In this document: piece by piece, positions 8,371-37,834 of the stretch
Layout: each line of letters begins with the position of its first letter
How positions within the stretch are numbered: the first letter of the stretch is position 1
Source: Cellulosimicrobium cellulans
Lineage (GTDB): Bacteria > Actinomycetota > Actinomycetes > Actinomycetales > Cellulomonadaceae
Assembly (NCBI RefSeq): GCF_024124905.1
Contig: NZ_JAMXST010000007.1
Location: 62,001 to 126,000 of the forward strand
DNA: 64,000 nucleotides
Direction: 5' to 3'
The notes under the pieces: model-generated
What the model saw: the letters and a program-made list of their open reading frames with translations, nothing else
Database searches by the model: none
What the model was told of the DNA's origin: nothing
Translations under genes and position numbers: made by a program

Positions 8371-8377
8371 CCCGCGC

Positions 8378-16937: not shown

Positions 16938-16945
16938 CCCGCCGG

Positions 16946-16983
16946 GCCCGCCTGCCCGACGTCGCGGCGTCGGGCAGGCGGGC
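16946..16983 (+). other. Intercistronic hairpin after binding-protein gene
   Basis: A perfect 16-bp stem (16946-16961 with 16968-16983, loop TCGCGG) lies between the binding-protein and permease genes. In transport operons such hairpins stabilise the upstream message or partially terminate, giving excess binding protein. No U-tract follows. Confidence 0.7.
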
Positions 16984-17007
16984 ATCCCCCACGGAAGGAG
17001 GCCGACC

Positions 17008-19031: not shown

Positions 19032-20845
19032 CCGCCACGACGCCGACCACCCAGGAGCGTCCCGGCCCGACGTCGGGCGAGGCGCCCGCGCTCGAGATCC
19101 GCGGGCTCGAGGTCGCCTACCGCACGCGCGACGGCGGCTCGTACGCCGCCGTCCGCGGCGTCGACCTCACGGTCGGGGCGGGCGAGGTCGTCGCGCTCGT
19201 GGGCGAGTCCGGGTCGGGCAAGAGCACGACGGCGCACGCGGCCCTGCACCTGCTCTCGCGCGGGGGAGCGGTGACGGGCGGGACCATCCGCCTCGGTGGG
19301 CGCGACGTCGGACGGCTCTCCGAGAAGGAGTGGCAGCAGGTGCGGGGCCGCGACGTCGGGCTCGTGCCGCAGGACCCGACGGTGTCCCTCAACCCCGTCA
19401 CGCGCGTGGGCGACCAGGTCGCGGAGGTGCTCGTCATCCACGGGCTCGCGCGGCGCAAGGAGGCGCGCGAGCGCGCGGTCGAGCTGCTGCGCCAGGCCGG
19501 GATCGACGACCCGGAGGCCCGCGCACGGCAGTACCCGTCGCAGCTCTCCGGCGGGATGCGCCAGCGCGTGCTCATCGCGATCGCCGTCGCGGCCCGGCCG
19601 CGCCTCGTCGTCGCGGACGAGCCCACGAGCGCGCTCGACGTGACCGTCCAGCGCCGCATCCTCGACCACCTCGACGGCCTCGTGCGCGACCTGGGCACCG
19701 CGGTCCTGCTCATCACGCACGACCTCGGCGTCGCGGCGGACCGCGCCGACCGGATCGTCGTGCTCGAGCGCGGGGTCGTCGTCGAGGAGGGCACCGCGGA
19801 CCAGGTGCTGCACGACCCGCGCCACCCCTACACCCAGCAGCTCATCGCCGCGGCGCCGAGCCTCGCGAGCTCGCGCCTCGTCGGGGGCGGCACGCCGGAG
19901 ACGGCGCCGGACGACGGCGTCGTCCCGCGCGCCGACGCGAGCCGCGCCGCGGTCGTGAGCCGCGCCGACGGTCAGGGGACCGCGGTGCCCGACGGCGCCG
20001 GCCCGGACACCGCGAGCGTGCCTGTCCTCGCGGTGCGGGACCTGCGCAAGGAGTTCACGCTGCCGCGCGGGTCGGCGCACCGGACGCTCGTCGCCGTGGA
20101 CGGCGTGAGCTTCGCCGTCGGGCGCGGCGAGACGTACGCGCTCGTGGGGGAGTCGGGGTCGGGCAAGAGCACGACGGCGCGTCTCGCCCTCCGGCTCGAG
20201 CGGCCCACCGCGGGCACGGTGGAGTTCGCGGGCGAGGACATCACGACGGCGCGCGGCGAGCGGCTGCGGTCGCTGCGTCGCGGCTTCCAGGTGGTCTACC
20301 AGTCCCCGTACGCGTCGCTCGACCCGCGGTTCACCGTCGAGCAGATCGTCACCGAGCCGCTCCGGGCGTACCGGGTCGGGTCGCCGTCCGAGCGGGCGGA
20401 CCGGGCACGTGCGCTCGTCGAGGACGTCGCGCTCCCGCCCGACGTGCTCCGACGGGGACCGCGCGAGCTCTCGGGCGGGCAGCGCCAGCGCGTCGCCATC
20501 GCGCGGGCGCTCGCGCTGAACCCCGCGCTCGTCGTGCTCGACGAGCCCGTCTCGGCGCTCGACGTGTCCGTGCAGGCGCAGATCCTCGAGCTGCTCGTGC
20601 GGCTCCAGGCCGAGCACGGGCTCGCGTACCTGTTCATCTCGCACGACCTCGCGGTCGTGCGGCAGGTGTCCGACCACGTCGGCGTCATGCACCGCGGGCG
20701 CGTCGTCGAGCAGGGCCCGGCCGAGCAGATCCTGCTCGACCCGCAGGAGGAGTACACGCGCGAGCTCGTCGCGGCCATCCCCGGCCGCCGCGCGCTCCAG
20801 GACGCGCCCCGGGCGTCGTCCACGACAGCAGGGAGGGCACGATGA
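19028..20845 (+). CDS. Fused double ABC ATPase (DppD-DppF-like)
   Basis: A 605-residue protein carrying two complete ATPase domains. Domain 1 (about residues 20-270) has Walker A 'GESGSGKSTTAHAAL', signature 'LSGGMRQRVLIAIA', Walker B '[14 protein letters not shown]' and H-loop 'LITHDLGVAADRA'. Domain 2 (about 335-590) has 'GESGSGKSTTARLAL', '[15 protein letters not shown]', 'LVVLDEPVSALDVS' and 'FISHDLAVVRQV'. Both end with the oligopeptide-binding C-terminal motif (HPYTQQL, EEYTREL). In most bacteria these are two genes (dppD, dppF); the fusion also occurs in GsiA-type glutathione importers, which fits a sulfur-controlled unit. Coupled to neighbours by 4-bp overlaps on both sides. Confidence 0.93.
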   Translation: MTATTPTTQERPGPTSGEAPALEIRGLEVAYRTRDGGSYAAVRGVDLTVGAGEVVALVGESGSGKSTTAHAALHLLSRGGAVTGGTIRLGGRDVGRLSEKEWQQVRGRDVGLVPQDPTVSLNPVTRVGDQVAEVLVIHGLARRKEARERAVELLRQAGIDDPEARARQYPSQLSGGMRQRVLIAIAVAARPRLVVADEPTSALDVTVQRRILDHLDGLVRDLGTAVLLITHDLGVAADRADRIVVLERGVVVEEGTADQVLHDPRHPYTQQLIAAAPSLASSRLVGGGTPETAPDDGVVPRADASRAAVVSRADGQGTAVPDGAGPDTASVPVLAVRDLRKEFTLPRGSAHRTLVAVDGVSFAVGRGETYALVGESGSGKSTTARLALRLERPTAGTVEFAGEDITTARGERLRSLRRGFQVVYQSPYASLDPRFTVEQIVTEPLRAYRVGSPSERADRARALVEDVALPPDVLRRGPRELSGGQRQRVAIARALALNPALVVLDEPVSALDVSVQAQILELLVRLQAEHGLAYLFISHDLAVVRQVSDHVGVMHRGRVVEQGPAEQILLDPQEEYTRELVAAIPGRRALQDAPRASSTTAGRAR

Positions 20846-22260
20846 CCGTCACCGCACGACCCGCAGCACCCGGCGTCCGGCCCGGGACCAGGGCGACGCC
20901 CGGGCCGCGCGTGCTCGCGGAGCCCGCCCCCGCGCCGTCGCGCACCGAGCTCGCGGGCCGCACCACCGAGCTGCTCCAGGCGATGATCCGCAACGCGTGC
21001 GTCAACGACGGCACCGTCGGCTCGGGGCAGGAAGTGCGCAACGCGCGCGCCGTCGCCGACGCGCTCGACGGCCTCGACCTCGAGGTCGAGTGGGTCGAGC
21101 CGCGCCCCGGCCGCACGTCGCTCGTCGCGCGCCTGCGCGGCACGGACCCGGAGGCGCCCTCGCTCGCGCTCGTCGGGCACACCGACGTCGTGCCCGTCGA
21201 GCCGGAGGGGTGGACGCGCGACCCGTTCGGCGGCGAGCTCGTCGACGGCTGGGTGTGGGGTCGTGGCGCGATCGACATGCTGGGGCTCACGTCCGCGTTC
21301 ACGGTCGTCACGCGCGCGATCGCGGAGAGCGGGCGGCGGCTGCGCGGCGACCTCGTGCTCGCTGCCGTCGCCGACGAGGAGCACGGCAGCACGTGGGGCG
21401 TCGACTGGATCACGCAGCACCGGTACGACCTCGTGGACGTCGACGCGGTCCTCACGGAGTCGGGCGGGGTGCCGCTCGGGCCTCGGGGGAGCCGCACGAT
21501 CGCGGTGGGGGAGAAGGGCGGCGCGGGGCGCCGGCTGCGCGTCGTCGGGCGCCCGGGGCACGGGTCGGGGCCGTACGGGTCGCTCAACGCGATCGTGCTC
21601 GCGGCGGAGGCCGTGCGGCGGATCACCGCGCACCGAGGCCCCGTCGTCATCAGGGACCTGTGGCGCCGCTACGTCGACGCGCTCGACCTCGCGCCCGACG
21701 TGCGGGCCGCGCTGCTCGACCCCGCCCGGATCGACGACGCGCTGCCCGCGCTCGGCGCGCTCGCGTCCGTCGCGCACGCCACGACGCACACGACCGTCGC
21801 GCCGACCGTGCTGCACGCCGGGTCGAAGCCCAACGTCATCCCCGGGCTCGCGGAGGTCACGCTCGACATCCGCGTCCTCCCGGGCGCGACCCCGCAGGAC
21901 GTGGCCGACCTGCTCGACGACGCGCTCGGCGACCTGCGCGAGCACGTGCACGTCGAGGGTGACTGGTTCGGCGAGGCGTCGCAGTCGCCCACCGACGGCG
22001 CGGCGTACGCGGCGATCGAGCGGGCAGTGCGCGCGCACGCGGGCGCCGACGTCGTGCCGGTCCTCGGGACCGGCGGCACGGACGGGCGCTTCTTCCGTCG
22101 CCGCGGCGTGCCGGCCTACGGGTTCGGCCTGCTCAGCGAGCAGTGGGACCCGGGGGTGTTCCGTTCGCTGTTCCACGGGAACGACGAGCGCGTCGACGTC
22201 GAGTCGCTCGGGCTCACCGCCACCGCGCTGCACGACGTCGTGACGAGCTACCTCGGGTGA
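20842..22260 (+). CDS. M20-family metallopeptidase / deacylase
   Basis: A 472-residue zinc-dependent hydrolase of the M20 (ArgE/DapE/CPG2) family. Metal ligands and catalytic residues appear in order: 'LVGHTDVVP' (His, Asp), 'GRGAIDMLG' (bridging Asp), 'VADEEHGS' (catalytic and metal Glu), 'LTESGG' and 'SLFHGNDERVD' (last His). The dimerisation domain lies between. M20 enzymes split dipeptides or remove N-acyl groups from amino acids. In Bacillus S-(2-succino)cysteine operons an M20 enzyme (SndB/YxeP) removes the acetyl group added by a GNAT; YxeP is of another M20 subfamily and shorter, so a dipeptidase for imported S-peptides is equally possible. Coupled to the ATPase by ATGA. Confidence 0.9.
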   Translation: MTVTARPAAPGVRPGTRATPGPRVLAEPAPAPSRTELAGRTTELLQAMIRNACVNDGTVGSGQEVRNARAVADALDGLDLEVEWVEPRPGRTSLVARLRGTDPEAPSLALVGHTDVVPVEPEGWTRDPFGGELVDGWVWGRGAIDMLGLTSAFTVVTRAIAESGRRLRGDLVLAAVADEEHGSTWGVDWITQHRYDLVDVDAVLTESGGVPLGPRGSRTIAVGEKGGAGRRLRVVGRPGHGSGPYGSLNAIVLAAEAVRRITAHRGPVVIRDLWRRYVDALDLAPDVRAALLDPARIDDALPALGALASVAHATTHTTVAPTVLHAGSKPNVIPGLAEVTLDIRVLPGATPQDVADLLDDALGDLREHVHVEGDWFGEASQSPTDGAAYAAIERAVRAHAGADVVPVLGTGGTDGRFFRRRGVPAYGFGLLSEQWDPGVFRSLFHGNDERVDVESLGLTATALHDVVTSYLG

Positions 22261-22263
22261 ACG

Positions 22264-22277
22264 GTCATCCGGATGAC
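22264..22277. promoter_or_regulatory. 14-bp perfect palindrome before MFS gene
   Basis: GTCATCCGGATGAC lies directly after the M20 stop and 8 bp before the MFS start. It could be an operator or a small hairpin near the ribosome site of the MFS gene. No regulator is assigned. Confidence 0.4.
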
Positions 22278-22285
22278 GGCCTGCC

Positions 22286-23824
22286 GTGGCGGTGACGACG
22301 GACGGTCGGGCGTCGCGGGCCGTGCTGCGGGTCTGCCTCGCGACCGGGTTCGTCACGCTGCTGGACTCGGCGATCCTCACCGTCGCGGCACCGGCGCTGC
22401 GCAGCGAGCTCGGGGCGACGACCGCGCAGCTCCAGTGGATCCTCGCCGGGTACTCCCTGACCTTCGGGCTCGCGCTCGTCCCGGCGGGCCGCCTCGGCGA
22501 CCGGCTCGGGCGCGGCCGACCCCTGGCCGTCGGGCTGGCCTTGTTCGCCGCGGGGAGCCTCGTCGGCGCGACGGCGTCCGACGCCGACGTGCTCGTCGCC
22601 GCGCGACTGCTCCAGGGCGTCGGCGCCGGGACCGCGAACCCGCAGGTCATCGGGCTGCTCCAGGACCACTACGCCGGGCCGGCCCGCGCACGTGCGCTCG
22701 GCGCGTACGCCTCGACGGGGGCGTTCGCCATGGTCCTGTCCCCGCTCGTCGGTGGCGGCATCCTGTCCGGGCTCGGACCGGCGGCGGGGTGGCGCGCCGC
22801 CGTCGGGCTCGCCGCGCCCCTGGGGCTCGCCGTGGCCGTCGTCGCCCTGCGCGTGCTGCGTCGCGGCTCGACGCGAGCGGGTGGCCTGACCCCGCGCGGC
22901 GCGCCCGGTCGCGACGGCGGTGCCGGGGAGGGCCGGGCAGCAGGCCGTCCGGCCGGCGAGGGCCTGTCCGCGAGCCGCGCCCGCGGTGGCCGCGTCGGCG
23001 GCGGGTTCGACGCCGTCGGGCTGGTGCTCGTCACGCTCGTGACGCTCGGGCTGCTCGTCCCGTTCGTCGCCGAGGGGCCGCGAGCCGTCGTGCTGCCGCT
23101 GTCGCTCGGGGTGCTCGCGGCCGCCGTCGGGGCGCTCGTCGTGTGGGAGCCGCGCTACGCACGGCGCGGTCGGACACCGGTTCTCGCACCCGTCCTCCTG
23201 CGTTCCCCGACCTACGTGCTGGGCTGCGTCGTCGCGGCGTTCAGCTTCGGGGCCGCGCTCGGGTACTCCGCCGTCCTCATGCTGTTCCTCCAGGACGGCG
23301 CGGGCCTCAGCCCGGTCCAGGCAGGCCTGGTCACGACGCCGGGCGCGATCGCGTCGGTCGTGGCGGCGAACCTCTCGTGGCGGCTGTTCCGCCGGTTCGG
23401 CCGCCGCGGCGTGTCCGTGGCCGTCGGCGCGAAGGCGCTCGTCGCCGCCGGCACGGCGCTCGCGGTGGCGGTCGCGCCCACGGCCACGGTGGTCGCCGTG
23501 CTCGTCCTGTCGCAGGTGCTGACGGGCGTCGTCGGGGGGCTGACGATCTCGCCCAACCAGACGCTGACGCTCGAGGGTGCCCCCGGCACGGAGCGCGGCG
23601 TCGCCGGCGCGGCGCTCCAGCTCGTGCAGCGCGTCGCCGCGACGGTCTGCATCGCCGCGATGACGGGCACGTTCGTGGGCCGGACCGACGGCGCGGTCCC
23701 GGGCGTCCTCGACGCCCATCGCGACGGACTCGTCGTCGTGAGCGCCGCCGTCGCGGCACTGGCGCTCGTCGCGTGGGCGGCGTCCCTGCTCGACGGACGG
23801 CTCGCCCGCCCCGCCGCGAGGTAG
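22286..23824 (+). CDS. MFS transporter, DHA2 (EmrB/QacA) type
   Basis: A 512-residue, probably 14-helix major facilitator. 'TGFVTLLDSAILTVAAPAL' (helix 1 motif D1) and 'AGYSLTFGLALVPAGRLGDRLGRGRP' (motif A, loop 2-3) identify a drug:proton antiporter of the DHA2 family. A Gly/Arg-rich loop of about 40 residues sits mid-protein near residue 210-240. The GTG start is 25 bp after the M20 stop; a second in-frame GTG lies two codons later. As the last gene of a riboswitch unit it may export a by-product of S-compound degradation or excess thiol; that is inference. Its stop falls at the edge of a 24-bp inverted repeat. Confidence 0.88.
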   Translation: MAVTTDGRASRAVLRVCLATGFVTLLDSAILTVAAPALRSELGATTAQLQWILAGYSLTFGLALVPAGRLGDRLGRGRPLAVGLALFAAGSLVGATASDADVLVAARLLQGVGAGTANPQVIGLLQDHYAGPARARALGAYASTGAFAMVLSPLVGGGILSGLGPAAGWRAAVGLAAPLGLAVAVVALRVLRRGSTRAGGLTPRGAPGRDGGAGEGRAAGRPAGEGLSASRARGGRVGGGFDAVGLVLVTLVTLGLLVPFVAEGPRAVVLPLSLGVLAAAVGALVVWEPRYARRGRTPVLAPVLLRSPTYVLGCVVAAFSFGAALGYSAVLMLFLQDGAGLSPVQAGLVTTPGAIASVVAANLSWRLFRRFGRRGVSVAVGAKALVAAGTALAVAVAPTATVVAVLVLSQVLTGVVGGLTISPNQTLTLEGAPGTERGVAGAALQLVQRVAATVCIAAMTGTFVGRTDGAVPGVLDAHRDGLVVVSAAVAALALVAWAASLLDGRLARPAAR

Positions 23825-23878
23825 AGCCGCAGGTCGCGAGGTAGAACACCAGGGGTTCTACCTCGCGACCTGCGGCTC
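23824..23878. terminator. Perfect 24-bp inverted repeat / bidirectional terminator (IR-3)
   Basis: Arms 23824-23847 and 23855-23878 are perfectly complementary over 24 bp with a 7-nt loop (ACCAGGG). The arm contains GAGGTAGAAC next to GAGCCGCAGG. It lies between convergent MFS and Dps-like genes, where it would terminate both. It also resembles IR-1 and IR-2 and may be a dispersed palindromic repeat. Confidence 0.8.
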
Positions 23879-23900
23879 TCCCTCGCGGGGCCGGGCTGGA

Positions 23901-24386
23901 TCAGGCCTCGCGGTTCTCCGACGAGAGGAACCAGGCCTGCTTCTCCAGGTCGGCGATGATCTCGTGCAGGATGTCGGCGGTCGTCGGGTCCTCGGCGTCG
24001 ACGGCGTCGTGCACCTCGCGCACGACCTCGACGGTCTGGGCGATGCGCTCGACGATCGCGTCGACCGTGTCGCCGACGGACACGAGGCCGGCCGGGTACG
24101 GGGAGAGGTCCGTCGTGGTCGCGACGGTCTCGGTGCGGCCGTCGGGCACGACCTGGAGCGCGCGCATGCGCTCGGCGACGGTGTCGCTGTGCTCGCGCGC
24201 GACGTCCACGACGTCGTCGAGCTGGAGGTGCAGGTCGCGGAACCCGCGGCCCGTGACGTTCCAGTGGGCCTGCTTGCCCTGGACGTGCAGGTCGACGAGC
24301 GCGACGAGCACGCGCTGCAGGTGGGAGCGGAGCGCCTCCGACGCCTCGAAGCGGGCGGTGGCGCGGTGGATGGTGGGTGCGGACAT
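23901..24386 (-). CDS. Dps/ferritin-like DNA-protection protein
   Basis: A 161-residue four-helix ferritin-like protein. 'LVDLHVQGKQAHWNVTGRGFRDLHLQLDDVVDVAREHSD' contains the Dps ferroxidase ligands (His in QAHWN, Asp in LDD, and the following acidic residue). The helix 'ILHEIIADLEKQAWFLSSENR' is the typical C-terminal helix. Dps dodecamers oxidise and store iron and protect DNA from peroxide. The start ATG at 24384-24386 has ribosome site GAGGAG; a TAGTCT box at 24482-24487 on this strand may be the -10. Several flavin enzymes nearby release peroxide, but co-regulation is not shown. Confidence 0.9.
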   Translation of the reverse strand: MSAPTIHRATARFEASEALRSHLQRVLVALVDLHVQGKQAHWNVTGRGFRDLHLQLDDVVDVAREHSDTVAERMRALQVVPDGRTETVATTTDLSPYPAGLVSVGDTVDAIVERIAQTVEVVREVHDAVDAEDPTTADILHEIIADLEKQAWFLSSENREA

Positions 24387-24646
24387 GGTGCTCCTCGCTC
24401 TCTCGGGGGTCTCCCGGAACGTGCGGCGGTCACCCGGCTTCCGTCGGTGCCGACTCGTGACTCGTTCTCTTGAACGATTCCAGACTAGGCACCATTCCCC
24501 GTCCCCGCCAGCAAGGACAGGCGTGCCTGACCTGCGGTGACACGTCGGCGGCACCCGCCGCGACGAGACCCGTCACGTTCTCTCGCCAGGTGAGAGGACC
24601 GGCCCTCGCTCTTGCCGCGGGGCGCTCGCGGTGGTCCGCTGGCGGC

Positions 24647-25674
<1,028 letters not shown>

Positions 25675-25678
<4 letters not shown>

Positions 25679-26907
25679 GCGCCGACGCAGCGGCCGAGCC
25701 CGCGACACCCGCGTCCCCGCCCGACGAGGCGGCCGCCCGCCGCCCGCTCGCCGTGCACTGGTTCCTGCCGACGTCGGGCGACGCACGCGGGATCGTCGAC
25801 GGCGCGCACGCGAAGGACACGCCCGGCCGGGCGACCGGGTTCCGCGCGCCGTCGCTCGACTACCTGGAGCAGGTCGCGGTCGCTGCCGACCGCCTCGGCT
25901 ACGAGGGCGTGCTCACACCGACGGGGACGTGGTGCGAGGACGCGTGGCTCGTCACGTCCGCGCTGATCCGCAGCACGGAGCGGCTGAAGTTCCTCGTCGC
26001 GTTCCGCCCGGGCCTCGTCTCGCCGACGCTCGCGGCGCAGATGGCCGCGACCTTCCAGCGCCTGTCCGGTGGACGGCTGCTCCTCAACGTCGTCACGGGC
26101 GGCGACGAGAACGAGATGCGCAGGTTCGGCGACTGGCTCGAGCACGACGAGCGGTACGACCGCACGCGCGAGTTCCTCGAGGTCGTGCGCGGCGTGTGGG
26201 AGGAGGCGCCGCTCTCGTACGAGGGCACGCACTACCGGATCGCCGACGCCCGGACGTCCGCGCCGCCGGACCCGCGCCCCGAGATCTTCTTCGGCGGATC
26301 GTCGGAGGCCGCGCTGCCCGTCGCGGCGGCCCAGGCCGACGTCTACCTCACGTGGGGCGAGCCGCCCGCGCAGGCGCGCGAGAAGATCGAGCGCGTGCGC
26401 GAGCTCGCCGTCGCGCAGGGACGCACGATCCGCTTCGGGGTGCGCCTGCACGTCATCACGCGCGACCGGTCGGCCGACGCGTGGGACGTCGCGCAGCGGT
26501 TCCTCGACGACCTCACGCCCGAGCAGATCGCGGGCGCCCAGCGGCTCCTGGGCTCGTCCGGGTCGGTCGGGCAGCAGCGCATGGTCGCGCTCCACGGCGG
26601 CGGTGACCTCGCGGCCACCCGGCGCGCGCGGGACCTCGAGATCCACCCCGGGCTGTGGGCAGGCGTCGGGCTCGTGCGCGGCGGCGCCGGGACGGCGCTC
26701 GTCGGCAGCCACGAAGAGGTCGCCGACCTGATCGAGGAGTACCGCGCGGCCGGGTTCGACGAGCTCGTCCTCTCGGGCTACCCGCACCTCGAGGAGGCGT
26801 ACTGGTTCGCGGAGGGCGTCCGCCCGCTCCTCGACGCGCGGGGGCTCACGGCGCCCGCCGCCCGCCACGGCGCGAGCACGGCTCGCACGCACGCCGTGCC
26901 CTTCTGA
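25675..26907 (+). CDS. ssuD: Alkanesulfonate monooxygenase (SsuD)
   Basis: A 410-residue FMNH2-dependent enzyme that releases sulfite from C2-C10 alkanesulfonates. Segments match SsuD closely: '[16 protein letters not shown]', '[16 protein letters not shown]', '[20 protein letters not shown]', '[17 protein letters not shown]', '[26 protein letters not shown]' and the C-terminal '[21 protein letters not shown]'. Twenty extra residues precede the domain. Overlaps the aldo/keto reductase gene by 4 bp. No SsuABC-type transporter lies beside it; sulfonate entry must rely on another system. It needs a flavin reductase, probably the unit 4 enzymes. A separate riboswitch follows it, so it is not part of unit 3. 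Confidence 0.88.
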
Positions 26908-27001
26908 CGGGCGCTCGCCCGAAGGCCTCTGCGGCCGACGCTCGCCCACGCCGCACGACGCGTACGGGCGGCGCTGCCGCGCGCCCTCTCGGCGACGTAT
27001 C

Positions 27002-27021
27002 CCTGAGACACATTGTCTCGG
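27002..27021. promoter_or_regulatory. Inverted repeat upstream of riboswitch RS3
   Basis: TGAGACA-CAT-TGTCTCG, with 6-bp perfect inner arms (GAGACA/TGTCTC) and partial extension outside. It lies about 60-80 bp before the inferred start of unit 3 and differs from the TACTnGAC dyad of the other sulfur units, so unit 3 may have its own regulator. Confidence 0.45.
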
Positions 27022-27081
27022 GATGAGAGATTTCTGCGCGGACCGTTCCCGCCCGTCGGCGGGCCTCGGTAGACATCTCGC

Positions 27082-27208
27082 ACGGTCAAGAGCACCAGCG
27101 CCAAGTTCCGGCTCGCTGGTCAGCAACCCCCTCGTCACGGCGGGGTGCTCCGGGAGATGACCTGGCCCCACCGGCACGGAGACGTCCTGCCGGAACGGCA
27201 AGCGTGTA
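27082..27208 (+). ncRNA. SAM-IV-type riboswitch (RS3) leading unit 3
   Basis: P1 strands GGTC (27084-27087) and GACC (27159-27162) bracket CCAAGTTCCGGCTCGCTGG, CAGCAACCCCC and CGGGGTGCTCCGGGAGATGA. The 3' domain has the hairpin CCGGCA/TGCCGG followed by GGCAAGCG (27197-27204), the SAM-IV hallmark. The expected promoter is close by: TAGACA at 27070-27075 would start transcription near 27082. The first gene begins 75 nt after the riboswitch. Confidence 0.88.
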
Positions 27209-27283
27209 CGACCTTCCGCCCGGCGACCCGGTGCGCCTCAGAGCGCCCGCGTCCGGGCACCGAGAAACAAGGAGCGTTTCCCC

Positions 27284-28441
27284 ATGGCTTCGTCGAAGCT
27301 TCGATCTCTCGCTGCCGCGGGCCTCGTGCTCGCCGCGCTCGTGTTGTCCGCGTGCGCGGGGACCGCGGACGCGACACCACCAGATCCTGACAGCACGGCG
27401 TCGGGCGGAGAACGGAAGACCGTCACCGTCACGGACGAGCTCGGGCGCGAGGTGGAGCTCACCGTCCCGGTCCAGTCGGTCGCCATCGGCTACAACTGGT
27501 ACAACATCGAGCTCGTCCGCGGTGTCGGGGCCGGTGACCGTGTCGTCGGCGTGAGCGCCGAGGGCGTCGAGGACACCCCGGGCAACGCTCCCTACTGGGA
27601 GTCCGTTCCGGGTACCGAGGCCATCGTCTCGCGGGCCGCCGAGTTCAACTACGACGAGATCATCGCCGCCGGGCCCGAGCTCTTCATCACGCTCAGCAAC
27701 TCTCCCTACGAGGAGGCGATCGAGAAGCTCGAGCCGTTCGGCATCCCCGTCCTCGTCGTGACGGCGTGGGAGCCGCGGCTCTTCGAGAAGAACGTCGAGC
27801 TGCTCGGCACGGTGTTCGGCACCGAGGAGCGTGCCGCGGAGTTCGCAGGGCTGTACCGCGAAGTGGCCGACCTCCTCGACGAGCGGACCGCCCACCTCCC
27901 CGACGACCAGCGCAAGAGCGTCTACTTCGAGAACGGCGAGGCGAACGTCACGGGCGTCCCCGGGTCGGGCTGGCACGACATCATCGAGCTCGCCGGAGGC
28001 ACCAACGTCTTCGGGGACATCGACTTCGCCTCCGACCCCAACCGCGGGGGCACGGTCCACACGACTCCTGTCGACCCCGCCGACGTCCTCGAACGGGATC
28101 CCGACCTGGTCCTGCGGCACGGCATCGACGGGCTCGTCGCCGGCTACGAGCCGTTCCCCGAGGACGCCGCCGCGACTCTCGCCGACGAGCTCGTCGCCCG
28201 CCCCGGCTGGTCCGAGCTGACCGCCGTGCGCAACGGCGACGTCTTCGTCGCGAACAACTTCTGGACGAGCGCTCTCGCGAAGGAGATCGGCGCCCTGGGG
28301 CTCGCCACCTGGCTGCACCCCGAGCTCTTCGAGGACGTGGACACGGAGGAGTTCTTCCGTCGCTGGGTGGAGGACTTCCAGCAGACGCCGTACGAGCACA
28401 CCGCGGACAAGTACGTCTACCGATGGGGTGACCACCGATGA
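27284..28441 (+). CDS. Siderophore/B12-type ABC transporter substrate-binding lipoprotein
   Basis: A 385-residue class III (FepB/BtuF-like) binding lipoprotein. Lipobox 'LVLSAC' places the lipidated Cys near residue 24. 'VTVTDELGREVELTVPVQSVAIG' is the standard start of the periplasmic-binding domain, and 'GPELFITLSNSPYEEAIEKLEPFGIPVLVV' is the hinge region. Ribosome site AAGGAG. Such proteins normally bind ferric siderophores, haem or cobalamin, yet this one follows a SAM riboswitch and is encoded with FMN monooxygenase, aldolase and aminotransferase genes, so a sulfur-containing ligand is suspected. Its 3' end overlaps the permease ATG. Confidence 0.9.
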   Translation: MASSKLRSLAAAGLVLAALVLSACAGTADATPPDPDSTASGGERKTVTVTDELGREVELTVPVQSVAIGYNWYNIELVRGVGAGDRVVGVSAEGVEDTPGNAPYWESVPGTEAIVSRAAEFNYDEIIAAGPELFITLSNSPYEEAIEKLEPFGIPVLVVTAWEPRLFEKNVELLGTVFGTEERAAEFAGLYREVADLLDERTAHLPDDQRKSVYFENGEANVTGVPGSGWHDIIELAGGTNVFGDIDFASDPNRGGTVHTTPVDPADVLERDPDLVLRHGIDGLVAGYEPFPEDAAATLADELVARPGWSELTAVRNGDVFVANNFWTSALAKEIGALGLATWLHPELFEDVDTEEFFRRWVEDFQQTPYEHTADKYVYRWGDHR

Positions 28442-29550
28442 GCGCGCCCGCACTCGACGACGCGGAGATCGCGCAGATCGCGGAGATCGAGCGGGGCCTC
28501 GCCCGAGGACGTCGTCGGCACGGGCTGGGAAAGCTGCTCGTGCTGGGAGGCGCGGTGGCGGTGACCCTCGTGGTCACGGTCCTCACCCTCCAGATCGGTG
28601 CCGGAGGCATCACCCCGCAGGACGTCGTCGACGCCCTCGTCGCCAAGACGACCGGTGTCGCGCCGTCCGACGCGCAGGAGCTGCGGCTGTTCACGACCGT
28701 GTGGGAGCTGCGCGTCCCCCGCGCGGGCCTCGCTCTGCTCGGCGGTGGTGCGCTGGCGATCGCCGGCGTCCTGTTCCAGGGTCTTCTGCGCAACCCGCTC
28801 GTCAGCCCCTTCACGCTGGGCATCGCCCCTGCTGCCGCGTTCGGCGCCGCGCTCGCGCTCCTCTTCGTCCAGGGACAGGGCGCCTCGACGACGTCGGCGC
28901 TCGTCGGCGGTGCGCTCGTGACCGGGCTCGGCTGCGCGGCGATCGTCCTGGGCCTGGCGGCGACGAAGAAGATGCAGCCCACGACCCTGATCCTCCTGGG
29001 CATCGCGCTCACCCAGCTCTTCACCGCGCTCACCGCCGGGCTCCAGTACATCGCGAACGAGGAGACGCTGGCGGCGATCGTGCGCTGGACCTGGGGAACG
29101 GTGAACGGGGCGGTCTGGTACCAGGTCGTGACGCTCGCGGTCCTGCTGGTCGTCGCCGTTCCGTACGTGCAGTGGCGCAGCTCCGCGGTGAACGCGATCG
29201 CGTTCGCCGGAGACGACGCCGCTCGGAGCCTCGGCGTCCCCGTCAGCCGGGTGCGGATCGAGCTGATCTTCGTCGCCGTGCTCATCACCTCGGTGACGAT
29301 CAGCTTCACGGGCATCATCGGCTTCGTCGGTCTCGTCGGACCGCACATCGCGCGTCTCGTGATCGGCGCGGACCACCGGTTCCTCCTGCCGTTCTCCGCG
29401 CTCGTCGGGGGACTCCTGCTCGTCGTGGCCGACGCCGTGGGCCGGATCGTCCTCGCGCCGGCTCTCGTGCCGGTCGGCATCGTCGACGCTCTCGTCGGTG
29501 CTCCCGTGTTCCTCTACCTGATCCTCGCGCGGAAGAGGTCGTTCGGATGA
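28438..29550 (+). CDS. FecCD-family ABC transporter permease
   Basis: A 370-residue BtuC/FecD-type permease with about ten predicted membrane helices. The motifs 'LRVPRAGLALLGGGALAIAGVLFQGLLRNPLVSPFTLGIAPAAAFGAAL' and 'FTGIIGFVGLVGPHIARLVIGADHRFLLPFSAL' are family hallmarks; the latter holds the coupling helix for the ATPase. A 40-residue charged N-terminus precedes helix 1. Both ends overlap neighbouring genes by 4 bp. A single permease gene implies a homodimer, as in BtuC. Confidence 0.93.
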   Translation: MSAPALDDAEIAQIAEIERGLARGRRRHGLGKLLVLGGAVAVTLVVTVLTLQIGAGGITPQDVVDALVAKTTGVAPSDAQELRLFTTVWELRVPRAGLALLGGGALAIAGVLFQGLLRNPLVSPFTLGIAPAAAFGAALALLFVQGQGASTTSALVGGALVTGLGCAAIVLGLAATKKMQPTTLILLGIALTQLFTALTAGLQYIANEETLAAIVRWTWGTVNGAVWYQVVTLAVLLVVAVPYVQWRSSAVNAIAFAGDDAARSLGVPVSRVRIELIFVAVLITSVTISFTGIIGFVGLVGPHIARLVIGADHRFLLPFSALVGGLLLVVADAVGRIVLAPALVPVGIVDALVGAPVFLYLILARKRSFG

Positions 29551-30356
29551 GCCTCGAGATCACCGGCCTGGACGTCGGCTACGGGCGACGACAGGTGCTC
29601 AGCGGCCTGGACCTGTCGGTCGCCCGGGGCAGCGTCCTCGGTCTGCTCGGCCCGAACGGCTCGGGCAAGTCGACGCTCATCAAGTCGGTCAGCCGGATCG
29701 TCCGGCCGTCGGGCGGGCAGATCACGTGGGACGACGCCGATCTGGCGGCGCTGTCGCGGCGGGACCTCGCGCGCGTCGTCGCGTACGTCCCCCAGTCCAT
29801 CGAGCTCTCGTTCTCGCTCTCGGTGCGCGAGGCGGTCCTGCTCGGCCGGACGCCGCACTTCGGGTCGCGTCCGCGGCGAGCCGACTGGGAGCGCGTCGAG
29901 GAGGCGATCGTGCGCCTCGGGCTGACCGAGATCGCCGACCGGAGCGTCACGGAGCTCTCCGGCGGCCAGGCCCAGCGGGTCCTCATCGCACGAGCGCTCG
30001 CGCAGGAGCCGCAGGTGCTGCTTCTCGACGAGCCCACGTCGGCGCTCGACCTGCGCTACCAGCTGCAGACCCTGCACCTCGCGCACCAGGTGGCTCGTTC
30101 CCGTGGGATCGCGGTCGTGGTCTCGATCCACGACCTGAACCACGCGGCGCGGTTCTGCGACGAGGTCGCCTTCCTGCTCGACGGGCGCATCCTGCGGCAC
30201 GGCACCGCGCACGAGGTCTACGACCCCGAGCTCATCCGACGCGTCTACGACGTCGACGTGGACCTCACCGAGCACGACGGCATCGTCGAGGTGCGCCCCC
30301 GTCTGCGGGCGGAACGCCTGGTCCTCGCGGCCCCGGCGGTCGCCGGACGCTCCTGA
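29547..30356 (+). CDS. FecE/BtuD-like ABC transporter ATP-binding protein
   Basis: A 269-residue ATPase of the iron-siderophore/B12 importer group. Walker A 'GPNGSGKSTLIKSV' near residue 35, Q-loop 'VAYVPQSIELSFSLSVREAVLLGRTPHFG' (typical of FecE), signature 'LSGGQAQRVLIARAL', Walker B '[16 protein letters not shown]' and H-loop 'VVSIHDLNHAARFCD'. The ATG overlaps the permease stop. It pairs with the 28438 permease and 27284 lipoprotein. Confidence 0.93.
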   Translation: MSLEITGLDVGYGRRQVLSGLDLSVARGSVLGLLGPNGSGKSTLIKSVSRIVRPSGGQITWDDADLAALSRRDLARVVAYVPQSIELSFSLSVREAVLLGRTPHFGSRPRRADWERVEEAIVRLGLTEIADRSVTELSGGQAQRVLIARALAQEPQVLLLDEPTSALDLRYQLQTLHLAHQVARSRGIAVVVSIHDLNHAARFCDEVAFLLDGRILRHGTAHEVYDPELIRRVYDVDVDLTEHDGIVEVRPRLRAERLVLAAPAVAGRS

Positions 30357-30392
30357 GACTCGCATGACCAACCCGGACACGAGGAGAGACAC

Positions 30393-31727
30393 ATGACGAC
30401 CGGACGGACGACGGGGAGCCGAGGCGGAGGGCTCCTGCTCGGGCTCCTGCTCGGCGGCGCAGCCCGCGCGTGGCGCAAACCGTGGAGCAGAGCGGACGAG
30501 GTCGTCGACCTCGCCCTGTACTCCGACCTCACGCAGCAGGCCGAGGCGGCGAAGCTCCACACGATCTTCCTGGCGGACGGCGTCGCGACCGACGTCGCCG
30601 ACCCGCAGCCCGGGCTCGAGCCCGTGACGTTGCTCAGCGCGCTGGCCGCCCGGACGGAGCGGATCGGGCTGGTCGGCTCGGTGTCGACGTCGTTCTCCGC
30701 GCCGTACAACGTGGCGCGGCAGATCGCCTCGCTCGACCACATCTCCCGTGGTCGCGCAGGGTGGAACATCGTGACGTCCGCGTGGGGCGGGGAGAACTTC
30801 GGCATCGAGCTGCCGCCGCACGACGAGCGCTACGCGATCGCCGAGGAGTTCACGCGGGTCGTCGAGGAGCTGTGGTCCTCCTGGGAGCCGGGCGCGATCG
30901 TGCGAGACCTCGAACGCAACCTCTTCGTCGACCCCGCGAAGGTCCGGCAGATCGACTGGACGTCCGAGCACTTCTCGGTCCGTGGTCCCCTCAACGTGCC
31001 GCGCACGCCGCAGGGGCGTCCGATCCTCGCGCAGGCGGGCTCGTCCGAGGCCGGCAAGGCCTTCGGCGCGCGGCACGCAGACCTGATCTTCACGACCGGG
31101 CTCGTCGACCTCGCGGAGTCGCAGGAGCTGTACGACGACGTGCGCAAGCGCGCCGCCGACGCGGGGCGGCACCCCGGGAGCATCAAGATCCTCCCGGGCG
31201 TCGCCCCCGTCATCGGGTCCTCCGACGCGGAGGCGCGACGCATCTGGGAGGAGTCGCACGAGCACCTCGACCTCGTGCGGGCCCGTGAGTCCTTGTCGAA
31301 GCAGTTCGGCGGCATCGATCTCTCGGGGTACGAGTGGGACCAGCCGGTCCTGGTCTCGGAGCTGCCCGAGGAAGAGGCCGTCGAGGGCCGACGCTCGCGC
31401 TACGGCGTCCTGCGGAGGCTGCTGGCTACCGGGGAGCTCACGACGCTCCGCGACCTGGTGCTGTATCACGCGAGCGCCGCGGGGCACTGGTTCCCGGTGG
31501 GATCGGTCGAGCGTGTCGCGGACGCGCTCCAGGAGCGCTACGAGAGCGGTGCGGCGGACGGCTTCAACATCCTGCCCTTCTTCCTCGAGTATCCCGGCGG
31601 TCTGGACGCCGTGACGGAGGGCCTCGTCCCGGAGCTGCAGCGCCGCGGACTCTTCCACACCGAGTACGAGCACGAGACGCTGCGCGAGAACCTCGGTCTC
31701 GCGCCCATCGACGAGGAGACGGCATGA
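30393..31727 (+). CDS. NtaA-family FMN-dependent monooxygenase (unit 3)
   Basis: A 444-residue member of the NtaA/SnaA/SoxA(DszA) group and a paralog of the 1147 and 2321 proteins. The N-terminal 'LLLGLLLGGAARAWRKPWSRA' aligns with the 'HLGAFLxxxxHxxAAWR' strand but is more hydrophobic. 'GRAGWNIVTSAWGGENFGIE', 'RTPQGRPILAQAGSSEAGKAFGARHADLIFT' and the tail 'VPELQRRGLFHTEYEHETL' are diagnostic. Ribosome site GAGGAG. Being locked in an operon with its own importer suggests it attacks the imported compound, perhaps cleaving a C-S bond using FMNH2 from unit 4. Confidence 0.9.
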   Translation: MTTGRTTGSRGGGLLLGLLLGGAARAWRKPWSRADEVVDLALYSDLTQQAEAAKLHTIFLADGVATDVADPQPGLEPVTLLSALAARTERIGLVGSVSTSFSAPYNVARQIASLDHISRGRAGWNIVTSAWGGENFGIELPPHDERYAIAEEFTRVVEELWSSWEPGAIVRDLERNLFVDPAKVRQIDWTSEHFSVRGPLNVPRTPQGRPILAQAGSSEAGKAFGARHADLIFTTGLVDLAESQELYDDVRKRAADAGRHPGSIKILPGVAPVIGSSDAEARRIWEESHEHLDLVRARESLSKQFGGIDLSGYEWDQPVLVSELPEEEAVEGRRSRYGVLRRLLATGELTTLRDLVLYHASAAGHWFPVGSVERVADALQERYESGAADGFNILPFFLEYPGGLDAVTEGLVPELQRRGLFHTEYEHETLRENLGLAPIDEETA

Positions 31728-32503
31728 GCATCACCACGAGCACCTCACCGCAGGTCGGCGCGGAGCCCTCGGCACGCACGACGGGAAGCCTCGACCCCCT
31801 GCCGGACGTCCCCGAGCCGCCGGCGCGCGACGTGCGCTGGGAGCTGGCTGCGGCTCTGCGCATCTTCGGGCGTGCCGGCTACGAGTTCGGCTTCAACGGA
31901 CACGTGTCCGCACGCGCGCCCGAGGCGCCGGGCCACTACTGGGTCAATCCGTTCGGTCTCTCCATCTCGTCGGTCACGCCTCGCGACCTCGTCCTCGTGG
32001 ACGAGGACGGGCAGGTCGTGGACCCCCGGGTCTCGGCCGCCATCAACGGCTTCGCGGGGAACCTCCGGCTGCACCGCGAGATCGACGACGCCGCGGTCGT
32101 CGTCCACCTGCACACGCCGAGCGGTTTCGCGTGGTCGTCTCTCGGACGGCCGCTCGAGCCGGTGACCACCGACGCGGCGCTCGTCGCGGGCCTCCAGGGC
32201 CTGACGACGTCGATCTGGGACGGGGCCACCTCGCCGTCGGCCGTCGAGCACGCGCGGGCAGGTGCCCGGGTGATCCTGCAGCGCGGGCACGGCTTCGTCA
32301 CGCTCGGTCGCTCCGTCGGCGAGGCGGCGTTCTACCTCCTCGCCGCGGAGCGCGCGGCCGCGGCGAACCTCGCCCTCGTGGGGGTGCCTGACAAGGGCGT
32401 GCTCCCACCGGAGGTGGTCGAGCGGTGGACCCTTCGCCCGGAGCTCGCGCGGGCGCACTTCGAGAACGCCTTCACCCTCGTCGAGGCGGAGGGGCTGCGA
32501 TGA
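31724..32503 (+). CDS. Class II aldolase/adducin-family protein
   Basis: A 259-residue zinc-dependent aldolase-fold protein. 'GYEFGFNGHVSARAPEAPGHYWVNPFGLSISSVTPRDLVLVD' is the N-terminal substrate-phosphate or carboxylate region, 'AAVVVHLHTPSGFAWSSLGRPLEP' gives the H-x-H zinc ligands, and 'LQRGHGFVTLGRSVGEAAFYL' the third His. Family members act as fuculose/ribulose-phosphate aldolases, methylthioribulose-phosphate dehydratase (MtnB) or decarboxylases. The sequence looks closer to the adducin-like group than to MtnB. Next to an aminotransferase under SAM control, a methionine-salvage-like step is tempting but unproven. ATGA overlaps at both ends. Confidence 0.88.
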   Translation: MSITTSTSPQVGAEPSARTTGSLDPLPDVPEPPARDVRWELAAALRIFGRAGYEFGFNGHVSARAPEAPGHYWVNPFGLSISSVTPRDLVLVDEDGQVVDPRVSAAINGFAGNLRLHREIDDAAVVVHLHTPSGFAWSSLGRPLEPVTTDAALVAGLQGLTTSIWDGATSPSAVEHARAGARVILQRGHGFVTLGRSVGEAAFYLLAAERAAAANLALVGVPDKGVLPPEVVERWTLRPELARAHFENAFTLVEAEGLR

Positions 32504-33741
32504 CCGCCACCGAGCTCGTGCGCGGTCGCGCGGCCGGGACCGGTCCGGCCGAGCCGCTCACCCTGTCCACGCTCGCCGCCGCGCTGACGGCACCCCGGGG
32601 CTTCGGGGACCAGAGCCTGCTCTCGCCGCGGCCGGACTCGATCCGTCTCCTGGGAGGAATCCCCGATCCCGGCGCGCTGCCGGTCGACGAGCTGCGCGAC
32701 GCGCTCGGCGAGGTGTGGGACGCGGGCGGCGGCGTCGCCTCGCTGCAGTACTCCGGGACCCAGGGTCTCGCCGGGCTCCGGGAATGGATCGCGGAGCGCG
32801 AGGGCGTCGACGCGTCGCGGGTCGTCATCACGAGCGGCGGGCTGCACGGCCTGTCGCTCACCGTGCAGGCGCTGGTCGAGCGGGGCGCGACGGTTGCCGT
32901 CGACAACCCCGTCTTCCCGATCTTCCTCCGGGTGCTCGAGCTCGTGGACGCCCGGACGCTCCCCGTCCCGGTCGAGGCGGACGGGCTCGACGTCGCGCAT
33001 CTCGCGCGGCGTCTCGCCGAGGGTGAACGCGTCGCGGCCGTGTACACGGTTCCCGACTTCCACAACCCGACCCAGGGCACCCTCTCCGCGGACAAGCGAG
33101 CTGCCCTCGTGGCGCTCGCGGAGCGGTACGGCTTCGTGGTCATCGCGGACGACCCCTACCGCGAGCTGCGCTTCGCCGGGGTGGACCAGGGCCGCCGCAC
33201 CTTCTTCGACTCGGAGCACGTGGTGCACGTCAACACGTTCACCAAGACGCTGGGCCCGGGCCTGCGGCTCGGGTGGCTCGTCCTCCCGGAGTCGCTCGTC
33301 ACGCCGGTCGTCCGGTTGCGCAACAGGCAGGACTCCCATTCGTCGACGTTCGTCCAGACGCTCGTCGAGCACCTCCTCCTCTCCCGCGCCGGCTGGTTCG
33401 ACGACACCCTCGCCCGGGCGAACGCGCTCTACGAGCACCGGGCCCGAGTGCTCGTCGACGAGCTCGAGAACCAGCTCCCCGGCGCGTTCGAGATCACCGC
33501 GCCGGAGGGAGGGTTCTTCCTGTGGCCACGCCTGGTCGACGACTCCGTGGACACGCACGAGCTGCACCGGCACGCGACGGCTGAAGGGGTCGACTACCAG
33601 CAGGGCGAGTTCTTCGCGACGGGCCCGGGGACCGACTCGGCCCGGCGCCTGCGCCTGGCCTACGGGGACCGCACCGACGCCGAGCTGCGCGCCGCCGTCG
33701 GGCGGTTGTCCGTCGCGTACCGTGCGGCGACGAGGGTCTGA
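32500..33741 (+). CDS. PLP-dependent aminotransferase, class I/II (MocR/2-aminoadipate type)
   Basis: A 413-residue fold-type I aminotransferase lacking any N-terminal regulator domain. 'LQYSGTQGLAGLREWIAEREG' and 'VITSGGLHGLSLTVQALVERGATVAVDNPVFP' form the cofactor pocket, 'YTVPDFHNPTQGTLS' carries the ring-stacking region, 'VIADDPYRELRF' holds the Asp and Tyr contacts, and Lys of 'NTFTKTLGPGLRLGW' is the PLP Schiff base. It ends unit 3 and overlaps the aldolase gene. Likely to interconvert an amino acid and a 2-oxo acid, for example recovering methionine or making cysteine or homocysteine; the substrate is not readable from sequence. Confidence 0.9.
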   Translation: MTATELVRGRAAGTGPAEPLTLSTLAAALTAPRGFGDQSLLSPRPDSIRLLGGIPDPGALPVDELRDALGEVWDAGGGVASLQYSGTQGLAGLREWIAEREGVDASRVVITSGGLHGLSLTVQALVERGATVAVDNPVFPIFLRVLELVDARTLPVPVEADGLDVAHLARRLAEGERVAAVYTVPDFHNPTQGTLSADKRAALVALAERYGFVVIADDPYRELRFAGVDQGRRTFFDSEHVVHVNTFTKTLGPGLRLGWLVLPESLVTPVVRLRNRQDSHSSTFVQTLVEHLLLSRAGWFDDTLARANALYEHRARVLVDELENQLPGAFEITAPEGGFFLWPRLVDDSVDTHELHRHATAEGVDYQQGEFFATGPGTDSARRLRLAYGDRTDAELRAAVGRLSVAYRAATRV

Positions 33742-33769
33742 GGGCGACGCCAGGGCCCAGGACCGCGGG

Positions 33770-34231
33770 TCACGCCCGCGCAGGAGTCGGCGCCGCGGCC
33801 CTCCGGCGTGCTCGCACGCCGGTGAGCGCCAGGGTCAGCTGCGCGACCCAGAGCACGAGGACCGCGGGCACGACGACGGCGCTCGCGACCTCGGCGGCGT
33901 GATAGCCGCGCGGGACCGGGACGGCCACCGGTATCGGCTGGGTGTACGTCAGGAGGAACCCGACGGGGATCGCCACGATCCACAGCGCGACGGTCACGAC
34001 GGCGTAGGGGAGCGGGACGTCGTCGGCGGATCGCATGCGCCCGACCCACGTCCCTAGCAGGGGAGCGAGCGCGAGCAGGCCGGCGACCGGGATCGCCGCG
34101 ACCACGAACCCTGCCAGGAGCAGTCCGCCGCCCGCGGCGACGGCCCCGGCCACGAAGCACAGCGGGAGCACGAGCGCTGCCCAGAGCTGGCCGCGGAACG
34201 CGGTCCTCCGCAGCCGTCGTGCTGTCGCCAT
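33770..34231 (-). CDS. Four-helix hypothetical membrane protein
   Basis: A 153-residue protein with four predicted membrane helices ('LWAALVLPLCFVAGAVAAGG', 'LAGFVVAAIPVAGLLALAP', 'VVTVALWIVAIPVGFLLTY', 'VVVPAVLVLWVAQLTLAL') and a basic C-terminus. No family recognised. Start ATG at 34229-34231 is preferred to an upstream ATG because the intervening 32 residues are Arg-rich and unlike the helix-bearing part. Convergent with the aminotransferase gene, 29 bp away. Confidence 0.7.
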   Translation of the reverse strand: MATARRLRRTAFRGQLWAALVLPLCFVAGAVAAGGGLLLAGFVVAAIPVAGLLALAPLLGTWVGRMRSADDVPLPYAVVTVALWIVAIPVGFLLTYTQPIPVAVPVPRGYHAAEVASAVVVPAVLVLWVAQLTLALTGVRARRRAAAPTPARA

Positions 34232-34898: not shown

Positions 34899-35467
34899 TC
34901 AGAGCGCCGAGTGGTCCCCGATCCGGTGGTACGTGCGGTCGTGGTAGACGAGCGGCGACGGGGTGCCGGCCACCTCGTCGCGCCGGGGGCCCGCACCCGT
35001 GCCGACGCTCGACGCGAGCGCTCGCAGCGAGACGAGGTAGGAGTCGCCCACCGGCGTGCGCTGTACCACGCGGCCCCGGACCCACGAGAGGGCCCCGTCG
35101 ATGACGGGTTCCCCGGTGCCGAGGCGGGACCAGCCGCCGTCGGCGAACCGGTCGATGCCGCTCGTGGCGAAGCGCGCCGAGACGTCGTCCTGGTGGTCGG
35201 CGAGGAAGCTCACCGCGAGCGTCCGTGCCGCCGACACGGCGGGCCACGACGACGACGTCGACGCGAGCGAGAACGCGAGCAGCGGCGGTGCGGCCGAGAC
35301 GGAGATGACCGACGTCGCGGTGAACCCGACGAGGCGGCCGTCGTGCTCGAGCGCGATCACGGCGACCCCCGCGGGGTGGCCGCGGAACACGGCCTTGTAC
35401 TCGTCGGGGGAGAGCTGCGGCTCGTCCTGCTCCGCCAGGAGGGCCTCCAGGTGGGTGAGCTCGGCGG

Positions 35468-35471
<4 letters not shown>
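34899..35471 (-). CDS. Flavin reductase-like domain protein
   Basis: A 190-residue protein of the flavin reductase (HpaC/DIM6-like) split-barrel family. 'YKAVFRGHPAGVAVIALEHDGRLVGFTATSVISVSAAPPLLAFSLASTSSSW' is the FMN-binding core and 'RLGTGEPVIDGALSWVRGRVVQRTPVGDSYLVSLRALA' completes the barrel. These enzymes use NAD(P)H to make free FMNH2 for two-component monooxygenases. The ATG overlaps the stop of the preceding reductase gene. Under riboswitch RS4, it is a natural supplier for the seven LLM enzymes in the window. Confidence 0.9.

Positions 35472-37834
<2,363 letters not shown>

Follow-up and report, generated by a model that had tools for sequence, protein, structure and literature searches.

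We analysed 64,000 nt of a Cellulosimicrobium cellulans contig (NZ_JAMXST010000007.1 of assembly GCF_024124905.1, positions 62,001-126,000; hereafter the window) and found in it a six-gene operon, termed unit 3, behind an S-adenosylmethionine (SAM) riboswitch of the SAM-IV class, RS3. The six plus-strand genes span positions 27284-33741 and encode a solute-binding lipoprotein (SBP), a FecCD-type permease, an ATP-binding cassette (ABC) ATPase, a flavin mononucleotide (FMN)-dependent monooxygenase of the NtaA/DmoA family (NtaA), a class II aldolase-fold protein (AldII) and a pyridoxal phosphate-dependent aminotransferase resembling PH0207 and LysN (Table 1). Judged from sequence, unit 3 most likely serves to import an organosulfur compound and to break it down for its sulfur. 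An earlier note on this DNA had described the same gene families (FepB/BtuF-like lipoprotein, FecCD permease, ATPase, NtaA, class II aldolase and aminotransferase), all of which were recovered with family models.

The RS3 match passed the curated SAM-IV threshold over the whole covariance model and was full-length (cmscan, model positions 1-116, E-value 1.4e-13), in agreement with the SAM-type riboswitch of the earlier note, whose region start at 27082 lies 2 bases 5' of the aptamer. The candidate ribosome binding site ahead of the first gene was partly paired in the predicted leader fold, with unpaired probabilities of 0.40-0.92 in a computation without SAM and without the pseudoknot. No terminator-like site was found in 26900-33900 (0 versus 1.1 in shuffles), which leaves transcriptional switching by RS3 unsupported, and no sigma-70-like site either (0 versus 0.1 in shuffles). 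The lack of a terminator-like site is also why we propose control at the level of translation, which is a guess; SAM binding and repression are predicted. Four of the five gene junctions are ATGA-type 4-bp overlaps, and a 36-bp gap separates the ATPase and NtaA genes. Longer frames exist for the third, fifth and sixth genes, for which the ATGs at the overlaps were taken as starts. For the first gene a codon scorer favoured a start at 27452; we retained 27284 because of the signal peptide with lipobox and the AAGGAG motif upstream. The six genes and RS3 are one operon, as had been proposed.

Table 1. Features of unit 3 and of the adjacent RS4 locus (window coordinates)
Feature	Position	Strand	Evidence
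RS3, SAM-IV riboswitch aptamer (RF00634)	27084-27210	+	cmscan 84.3 bits, gathering threshold 38
Candidate ribosome binding site AAGGAG ahead of first gene	27269-27274	+	sequence
Solute-binding lipoprotein (SBP)	27284-28441	+	Peripla_BP_2; lipobox-like LSAC near residue 25
FecCD-type permease	28438-29550	+	PF01032, 272.7 bits
ABC ATPase	29547-30356	+	PF00005 (ABC_tran), 126.2 bits
NtaA/DmoA-family FMN-dependent monooxygenase (NtaA)	30393-31727	+	Bac_luciferase; TIGR03860, 444.1 bits, cut-off 279.7
Class II aldolase-fold protein (AldII)	31724-32503	+	PF00596 (Aldolase_II), 110.7 bits
Aminotransferase, PH0207/LysN-like	32500-33741	+	PF00155 (Aminotran_1_2), 105.7 bits; best solved relatives 1x0m, 3aov
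Unit-3 segment (6,896 bp), absent from same-species genome G790	26908-33803		blastn versus six congeneric loci; junction sequences
Second flavin reductase behind RS4	34899-35471	-	Flavin_Reduct, 106.7 bits, matched in a longer frame ending with this part
SsuE-like NADPH:FMN reductase behind RS4	35468-36058	-	FMN_red, 84.1 bits; SsuE model 92.1 bits, cut-off 164
RS4, SAM-IV riboswitch ahead of the flavin reductases	36079-36212	-	nearest type to RS3
Other SAM-IV aptamers of the window	693-802; 15094-15207

The first three genes make up a complete class III (FecBCD/BtuFCD) importer, a class whose known ligands are chiefly metal chelates, haem and corrinoids. Fold neighbours of the SBP were mostly metal-chelate binders and the nearest were YiuA structures, one of them solved with iron and nitrilotriacetic acid; the imported ligand may be metal-bound. 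A search of the window with a 19-bp DtxR/IdeR operator consensus gave no match with up to 3 mismatches. SBP homologues (E-value 1e-20) were present in 12 of 297 genomes of the order, our own included. Ten of these genomes (37-40% identity, loci L018-L027) share only the transporter with unit 3, and the eleventh (L028, 29%) encodes an NtaA-like protein (40%) divergently from it. L018, the one order-wide relative profiled, carries a gene for an AhpD/CMD-domain protein before the importer and one for a NAD_binding_9 protein after it. A pattern scan of genome contigs with the SBP alone matched 77 stretches, none of them a relative.

Among solved structures NtaA was closest to YtnJ/MoxC (288.6 bits), ahead of 3sdo, which is named nitrilotriacetate monooxygenase (258 bits), DszA (226 bits) and EDTA monooxygenase (196 bits). 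A sulfur function is reported for ScmK, a relative of NtaA, which frees N-acetylcysteine from an N-acetyl S-succinyl cysteine (PMC12757645), and two nitrilotriacetate-monooxygenase genes of Gordonia are reported to be more strongly expressed when a fluorotelomer rather than sulfate is the sulfur source (PMC7661421).

For AldII, the label "class II aldolase" is valid for family and fold and does not extend to the catalytic residues. All five AldII homologues compared keep the three metal-binding histidines (FucA 92, 94 and 155) in a residue map. At the position of FucA Glu73 all five have glycine (Gly109 in the alignment), by sequence alignment FucA Tyr113 is replaced by threonine in four and by histidine in one, and Asn29, Thr43 and Ser71 of FucA are likewise absent from all five. 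The fold neighbours, at 22-28% identity, were 4xxf, NovR, pyruvic oxime dioxygenase and TqaM, so that AldII groups by fold with the class II aldolase-fold Fe(II) oxygenases represented by the last three. Pyruvic oxime dioxygenase, an Fe(II) enzyme, is reported to have three histidines and likewise to lack Glu73 and Tyr113 (PMC5216522, PMC11841055), and NovR to have a three-histidine iron site and to use O2 (PMC13111500). We therefore regard AldII as probably an oxygenase rather than an aldolase. The methionine salvage dehydratase MtnB was also considered as an identity for AldII and rejected (TIGR03328, 22.4 bits versus a cut-off of 137).

A scan of 84,980 species, one genome each, with two peptide patterns from a two-row AldII alignment gave 24 matched stretches, three of them relatives, in Cellulomonas massiliensis JC225 (57%, itself an alignment row), Gordonia sp. 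ABSL1-1 (69%) and a Xylophilus metagenome-assembled genome (MAG; 62%). A fourth, in genome G903, was missed by the patterns and brought up by an AldII profile search of 401 genomes (E-value 3e-65), which gave nine hits in all, with Gordonia, a profile row, at 2e-139 and the other seven at 8e-43 to 7e-41. At an E-value of 1e-48 our genome was the only one with AldII among 347 of the order, and at 1e-25 AldII was found in 31 of 396 genomes of the phylum, none but our own above 39% identity. Within the family, four of 221 genomes matched at 1e-20, namely our own, C. massiliensis (G728), G731 (42%) and G730 (39%). The last two had no other unit-3 enzyme adjoining, one of them having a weak ATPase match, and were left out of the profile.

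The surroundings of these genes point to sulfur. In C. massiliensis JC225 the homologues of AldII, NtaA, SBP, FecCD permease and ATPase (50-65% identity) form part of a series of genes on a single strand, in the order LysR, rhodanese, SsuD-like monooxygenase, SfnB-like acyl-CoA-dehydrogenase-type protein, AldII, NtaA, SBP, FecCD, ATPase, ApbA/ketopantoate-reductase-like protein (KPR), S33 hydrolase and a frame with a GlcD-like domain. Several of these labels are loose (SfnB-like, 76 bits versus a cut-off of 431; SsuD-like, 199 versus 510; rhodanese, 138 bits versus 250 for 3-mercaptopyruvate sulfurtransferase). Gordonia sp. ABSL1-1 has GlcD-like and S33 genes on one side, followed by LysR, a peptide-type ABC importer, NtaA, AldII and KPR and, divergently after KPR, an acyl-CoA-dehydrogenase-type protein, an SsuD-like monooxygenase and a rhodanese. 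G903 encodes a peptide-type importer, NtaA and AldII (41%) on one strand and LysR, an SsuD-like monooxygenase and KPR on the other. The Xylophilus locus holds a partial SBP match near the contig end, AldII, KPR, two SsuD-like monooxygenases, an FMN reductase, a CDO_I protein, a rhodanese and acyl-CoA-dehydrogenase-type proteins; NtaA was not seen there. No Rfam family was found at an E-value of 1 in these four loci. Since sulfur-type neighbours recur here without a detected riboswitch, the sulfur role is backed independently of RS3. Two importer classes serve the NtaA-AldII pair, FecCD-type here and in C. massiliensis and peptide-type in Gordonia and G903, and each of the five loci encodes an enzyme for which a 2-oxo or 2-hydroxy acid is the expected substrate, namely the aminotransferase here and KPR in the other four. 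No KPR-like protein was found elsewhere in our genome at an E-value of 1e-5, in a search without a positive control.

The earlier note had suggested looking for the same six genes in other actinobacteria. Our genome searches returned no second case of the exact set, and the five genes without the aminotransferase were seen once, in C. massiliensis. Nor was the set found described in literature titles or the beginnings of abstracts, a source in which subscription papers are thinly covered and which is thus no proof that the set is unpublished.

The aminotransferase itself was found in 15 of 221 family genomes (E-value 1e-50), with 76-80% identity in five genomes of group g333. Of the 14 other loci, the 13 named L134-L146 were compared (all but that of G825), and all 13 showed sulfur-type neighbourhoods. 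In the five g333 loci the aminotransferase is followed by homologues of both reductase genes that follow RS4, while in L139 and L141 it closes a run of GlcD-like gene, peptide-type importer and aminotransferase. LLM1/LLM2-type monooxygenases, the types of the first unit of the window, come after it in L140, L143, L144, L145 and L146, in the last of these after a gap and with LLM1 only partial, and in L142, cut by a contig end, an NtaA-like gene precedes it. Over about 19 kb per locus (7.4 kb for L142), each of the 13 contained a monooxygenase (10 loci), GlcD-like (8), flavin-reductase (5) or peptide-type SBP gene (11). The corresponding counts in 11 control loci around SBP homologues, which belong to other families so that kinship is uncontrolled in this comparison, were 1, 0, 0 and 4, and the four peptide-type SBP matches scored 82-93 bits versus 246-389 in the aminotransferase loci. 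SAM-IV elements stand directly before the aminotransferase in two of the 13 loci, L145 and L144, where the aptamers end 22 and 20 nt before the ATG. The five g333 loci had none at gathering thresholds, and three of them none at an E-value of 1. L144 has a divergent pair of SAM-IV elements (9979-10366), flanked by the aminotransferase operon and a nitroreductase-like gene, and a third element at 6008-6117. In our reading the aminotransferase is itself one of the sulfur genes.

Unit 3 was apparently acquired, probably as a recent insertion. Up to 26907 and again from 33804 the window aligns with the same-species genome G790 (98.4% and 98.2% match, respectively), which has 55 bp of different sequence in place of the unit; the unit is missing at this site in all six congeners compared (G790, G787, G785, G789, G793 and G795). 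Among 17 genomes of the genus our own alone holds AldII (E-value 1e-20) or the aminotransferase (1e-50), for which gain is a simpler reading than repeated loss. The insert has a G+C content of 71.6%, versus 75.1% in the left and 72.6% in the right flank, and third-position G+C is 91.1-94.0% in the six unit-3 genes versus 96.6-98.5% in three neighbouring sulfur-type genes. As to direct repeats at the insert ends, only matches of at most 10 bases were found. In G785, G793 and G795 (L100, L102 and L103) the preceding SsuD-like gene is also missing at the same site, and genes seem to have been gained and lost repeatedly at this junction.

Our genome contains five SAM-IV elements above threshold, four in the window and the fifth on the same contig. 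We compared RS3 on both strands with 34 aptamers, the other four of our genome and 30 that are a subset of 40 from nine congeners and three genomes of the Cellulomonas-type genus g3. Each of the top five matches stands before an SsuE-like reductase gene: G798 (92.6% over 94 nt, 139 bits), our own RS4 (92.9% over 84 nt, 122 bits), G795 (91.5% over 82 nt, 113 bits), G730 (86.7% over 83 nt, 95 bits) and G731 (84.5% over 84 nt, 91.5 bits). The RS4 copies of G790, G787, G785, G789 and G793 match RS3 at 89-93%. Sixth was the only SAM-IV of C. massiliensis (82.1% over 84 nt, 85 bits), and the rest scored at most 77 bits. The likeness of RS3 and RS4 is limited to the conserved core, and a firm aptamer tree would need more than 84 nt. 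That the core of RS3 is nearest to RS4, 9 kb away, suggests local capture, and we infer that RS3 is a copy of RS4 or was converted by it; alternatively, RS3 may have arrived with the insert from a related donor. The C. massiliensis element (L078, G728:C1:422780-422894), the best match outside the reductase type, lies about 1.46 Mb from the unit-3-like cluster of that genome. The fifth element of our genome, its best-scoring one (113 bits), is located at G000:C8:35130-35245 (L001; L029 9130-9245), about 27 kb before the window start.

SAM-IV elements precede unit 3, two other sulfur-type operons and the flavin reductases within 36 kb. The first of these operons (window 693-14913) encodes two luciferase-like monooxygenases, one of NtaA type, a DUF1684 protein, a GNAT acetyltransferase (4682-5305), an amino-acid-type ABC importer, a DAO-family oxidase, a nitroreductase-like protein and three more monooxygenases; its combination of GNAT, NtaA and amino-acid importer recalls S-alkylcysteine salvage. 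In Rhodococcus, cystine-type ABC proteins and a sarcosine oxidase (peg5783-5785) are reported to rise on dibenzothiophene (PMC8557817, Table 1). The second operon (window 15094-26907) encodes a peptide-type importer, an M20 peptidase, a major facilitator superfamily transporter, an aldo-keto reductase and an SsuD-like monooxygenase (SsuD model, 446 bits, cut-off 518). A ferritin/Dps-like gene (window 23901-24386, minus) lies on the other strand inside this operon.

With moderate confidence, we propose that unit 3 is an acquired, SAM-controlled organosulfur scavenging operon which works through a 2-oxo acid, an AldII oxygenase and C-S cleavage by NtaA. At low SAM, RS3 would permit expression, perhaps at the level of translation, and the lipoprotein and FecCD transporter would take up a small sulfur compound, which might be metal-complexed. 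The pathway would turn on a 2-oxo acid, made or consumed by the aminotransferase, in whose place the relatives have ketopantoate-reductase-like and GlcD-like enzymes. AldII would act on this 2-oxo acid, for which Fe(II)/O2-dependent cleavage is more likely than a retro-aldol reaction, and NtaA, supplied by the RS4-linked flavin reductases, would break the C-S bond. The released thiol or sulfite would then enter cysteine and methionine synthesis. Beyond this scheme, it is possible, although we hold it only tentatively, that a class III importer has been recruited for an organosulfur compound not yet described, which is processed by a 2-oxo acid route via an aldolase-fold iron oxygenase and an FMN monooxygenase, with sulfur control through a copied neighbouring SAM-IV element.

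Four other explanations were weighed. Were unit 3 an operon for metal-chelate catabolism, the importer would take up a metal-aminopolycarboxylate or similar complex, NtaA would oxidise the chelator like the nitrilotriacetate and EDTA monooxygenases, the aminotransferase would handle glyoxylate or another 2-oxo acid, and SAM control would either be incidental or reflect sulfur in the chelator. The YiuA-like fold of the SBP, the membership of NtaA in the nitrilotriacetate family and its similarity to 3sdo and EDTA monooxygenase would suit this, and both importer types found beside NtaA-AldII occur in metal-chelate uptake. We nevertheless consider it unlikely, as YtnJ was the top match of NtaA and EDTA monooxygenase ranked below DszA, as a sulfur role is indicated both by SAM-IV here and by the rhodanese, SfnB-like and SsuD-like genes of the related loci, and as the window gave no DtxR/IdeR consensus match. 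Similarly doubtful is an importer for a 2-hydroxy or 2-oxo analogue of methionine or cysteine (e.g. 2-hydroxy-4-methylthiobutyrate), from which the aminotransferase would form methionine or cysteine, with NtaA and AldII in a side role. This overlaps with our preferred explanation and agrees with the GlcD-like, importer and aminotransferase runs of L139 and L141 and with the SAM-IV elements leading the aminotransferase in L144 and L145. It has no need, however, for NtaA or AldII, which are both present, a FecCD importer would be unusual for so small a ligand, and no GlcD-like match above 60 bits was found in the 100 kb of our contig that were compared.

The earlier note had envisaged oxidation, retro-aldol cleavage and transamination to an amino acid, that is, the same sulfur role with another AldII step. 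Gene order would suit such a sequence, as would the aldolase fold and the three metal histidines of AldII, but the five FucA residues missing from all its homologues and the published three-histidine Fe(II) oxygenases of this fold make a retro-aldol step quite unlikely, and the order of steps was a guess that the partner enzymes KPR and GlcD fit less well than a 2-oxo acid pivot. The organosulfur import and breakdown proposed there is likely, being backed by the relatives without a detected riboswitch and by the aminotransferase neighbourhoods. Because two of the rivals share the sulfur role, the probabilities of the best and the rival explanations overlap. An iron-siderophore or cobalamin importer that gained riboswitch and enzymes by chance recombination, as the family and fold of the transport proteins and the insertion-like locus might suggest, is very improbable, since the same importer occurs with NtaA and AldII in another genus, so that their linkage is not a recent accident, and no iron box was found in the window.

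The proposed scavenging operon resembles known systems in parts. With the S-(2-succino)cysteine/S-alkylcysteine salvage of Bacillus subtilis (ScmK, YtnJ/MoxC) it shares an NtaA/DmoA-type FMN monooxygenase whose nearest solved relative is YtnJ, as well as sulfur control and importers. The ScmK pathway, however, is reported to proceed by N-acetylation and deacetylation (PMC12757645), whereas unit 3 has AldII and an aminotransferase instead; neither a ScmKLP-type N-acetyltransferase nor an N-acetylcysteine deacetylase is among its six genes. The SBP family and fold and the permease and ATPase families are those of YiuA-type and other class III metal-chelate importers, but unit 3 differs from these in its SAM-IV element in front and the sulfur-type enzymes beside it, and no iron box was found in the window. 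Unlike NovR/CloR, pyruvic oxime dioxygenase and TqaM, with which it has low identity, AldII belongs to a sulfur-type operon, its activity being predicted. The Rhodococcus response to sulfur limitation (dsz, ssu, tau and related genes) similarly brings together flavin reductase, FMN monooxygenases and ABC importers, and on dibenzothiophene two NtaA-type proteins and a ketopantoate reductase are reported to rise (PMC8557817, section 6 and Table 1). The importer differs there, however, rhodanese-type proteins fall, and the word "aldolase" does not occur in the main text of that paper.

In C. massiliensis, Gordonia and G903 the relatives of unit 3 are accompanied by a LysR gene, without a detected Rfam element, whereas the copy of this strain lies behind SAM-IV, which might represent a case of riboswitch capture. 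Unit 3 offers a testable candidate sulfur-scavenging pathway with an unusual importer and a probable oxygenase in an aldolase fold.

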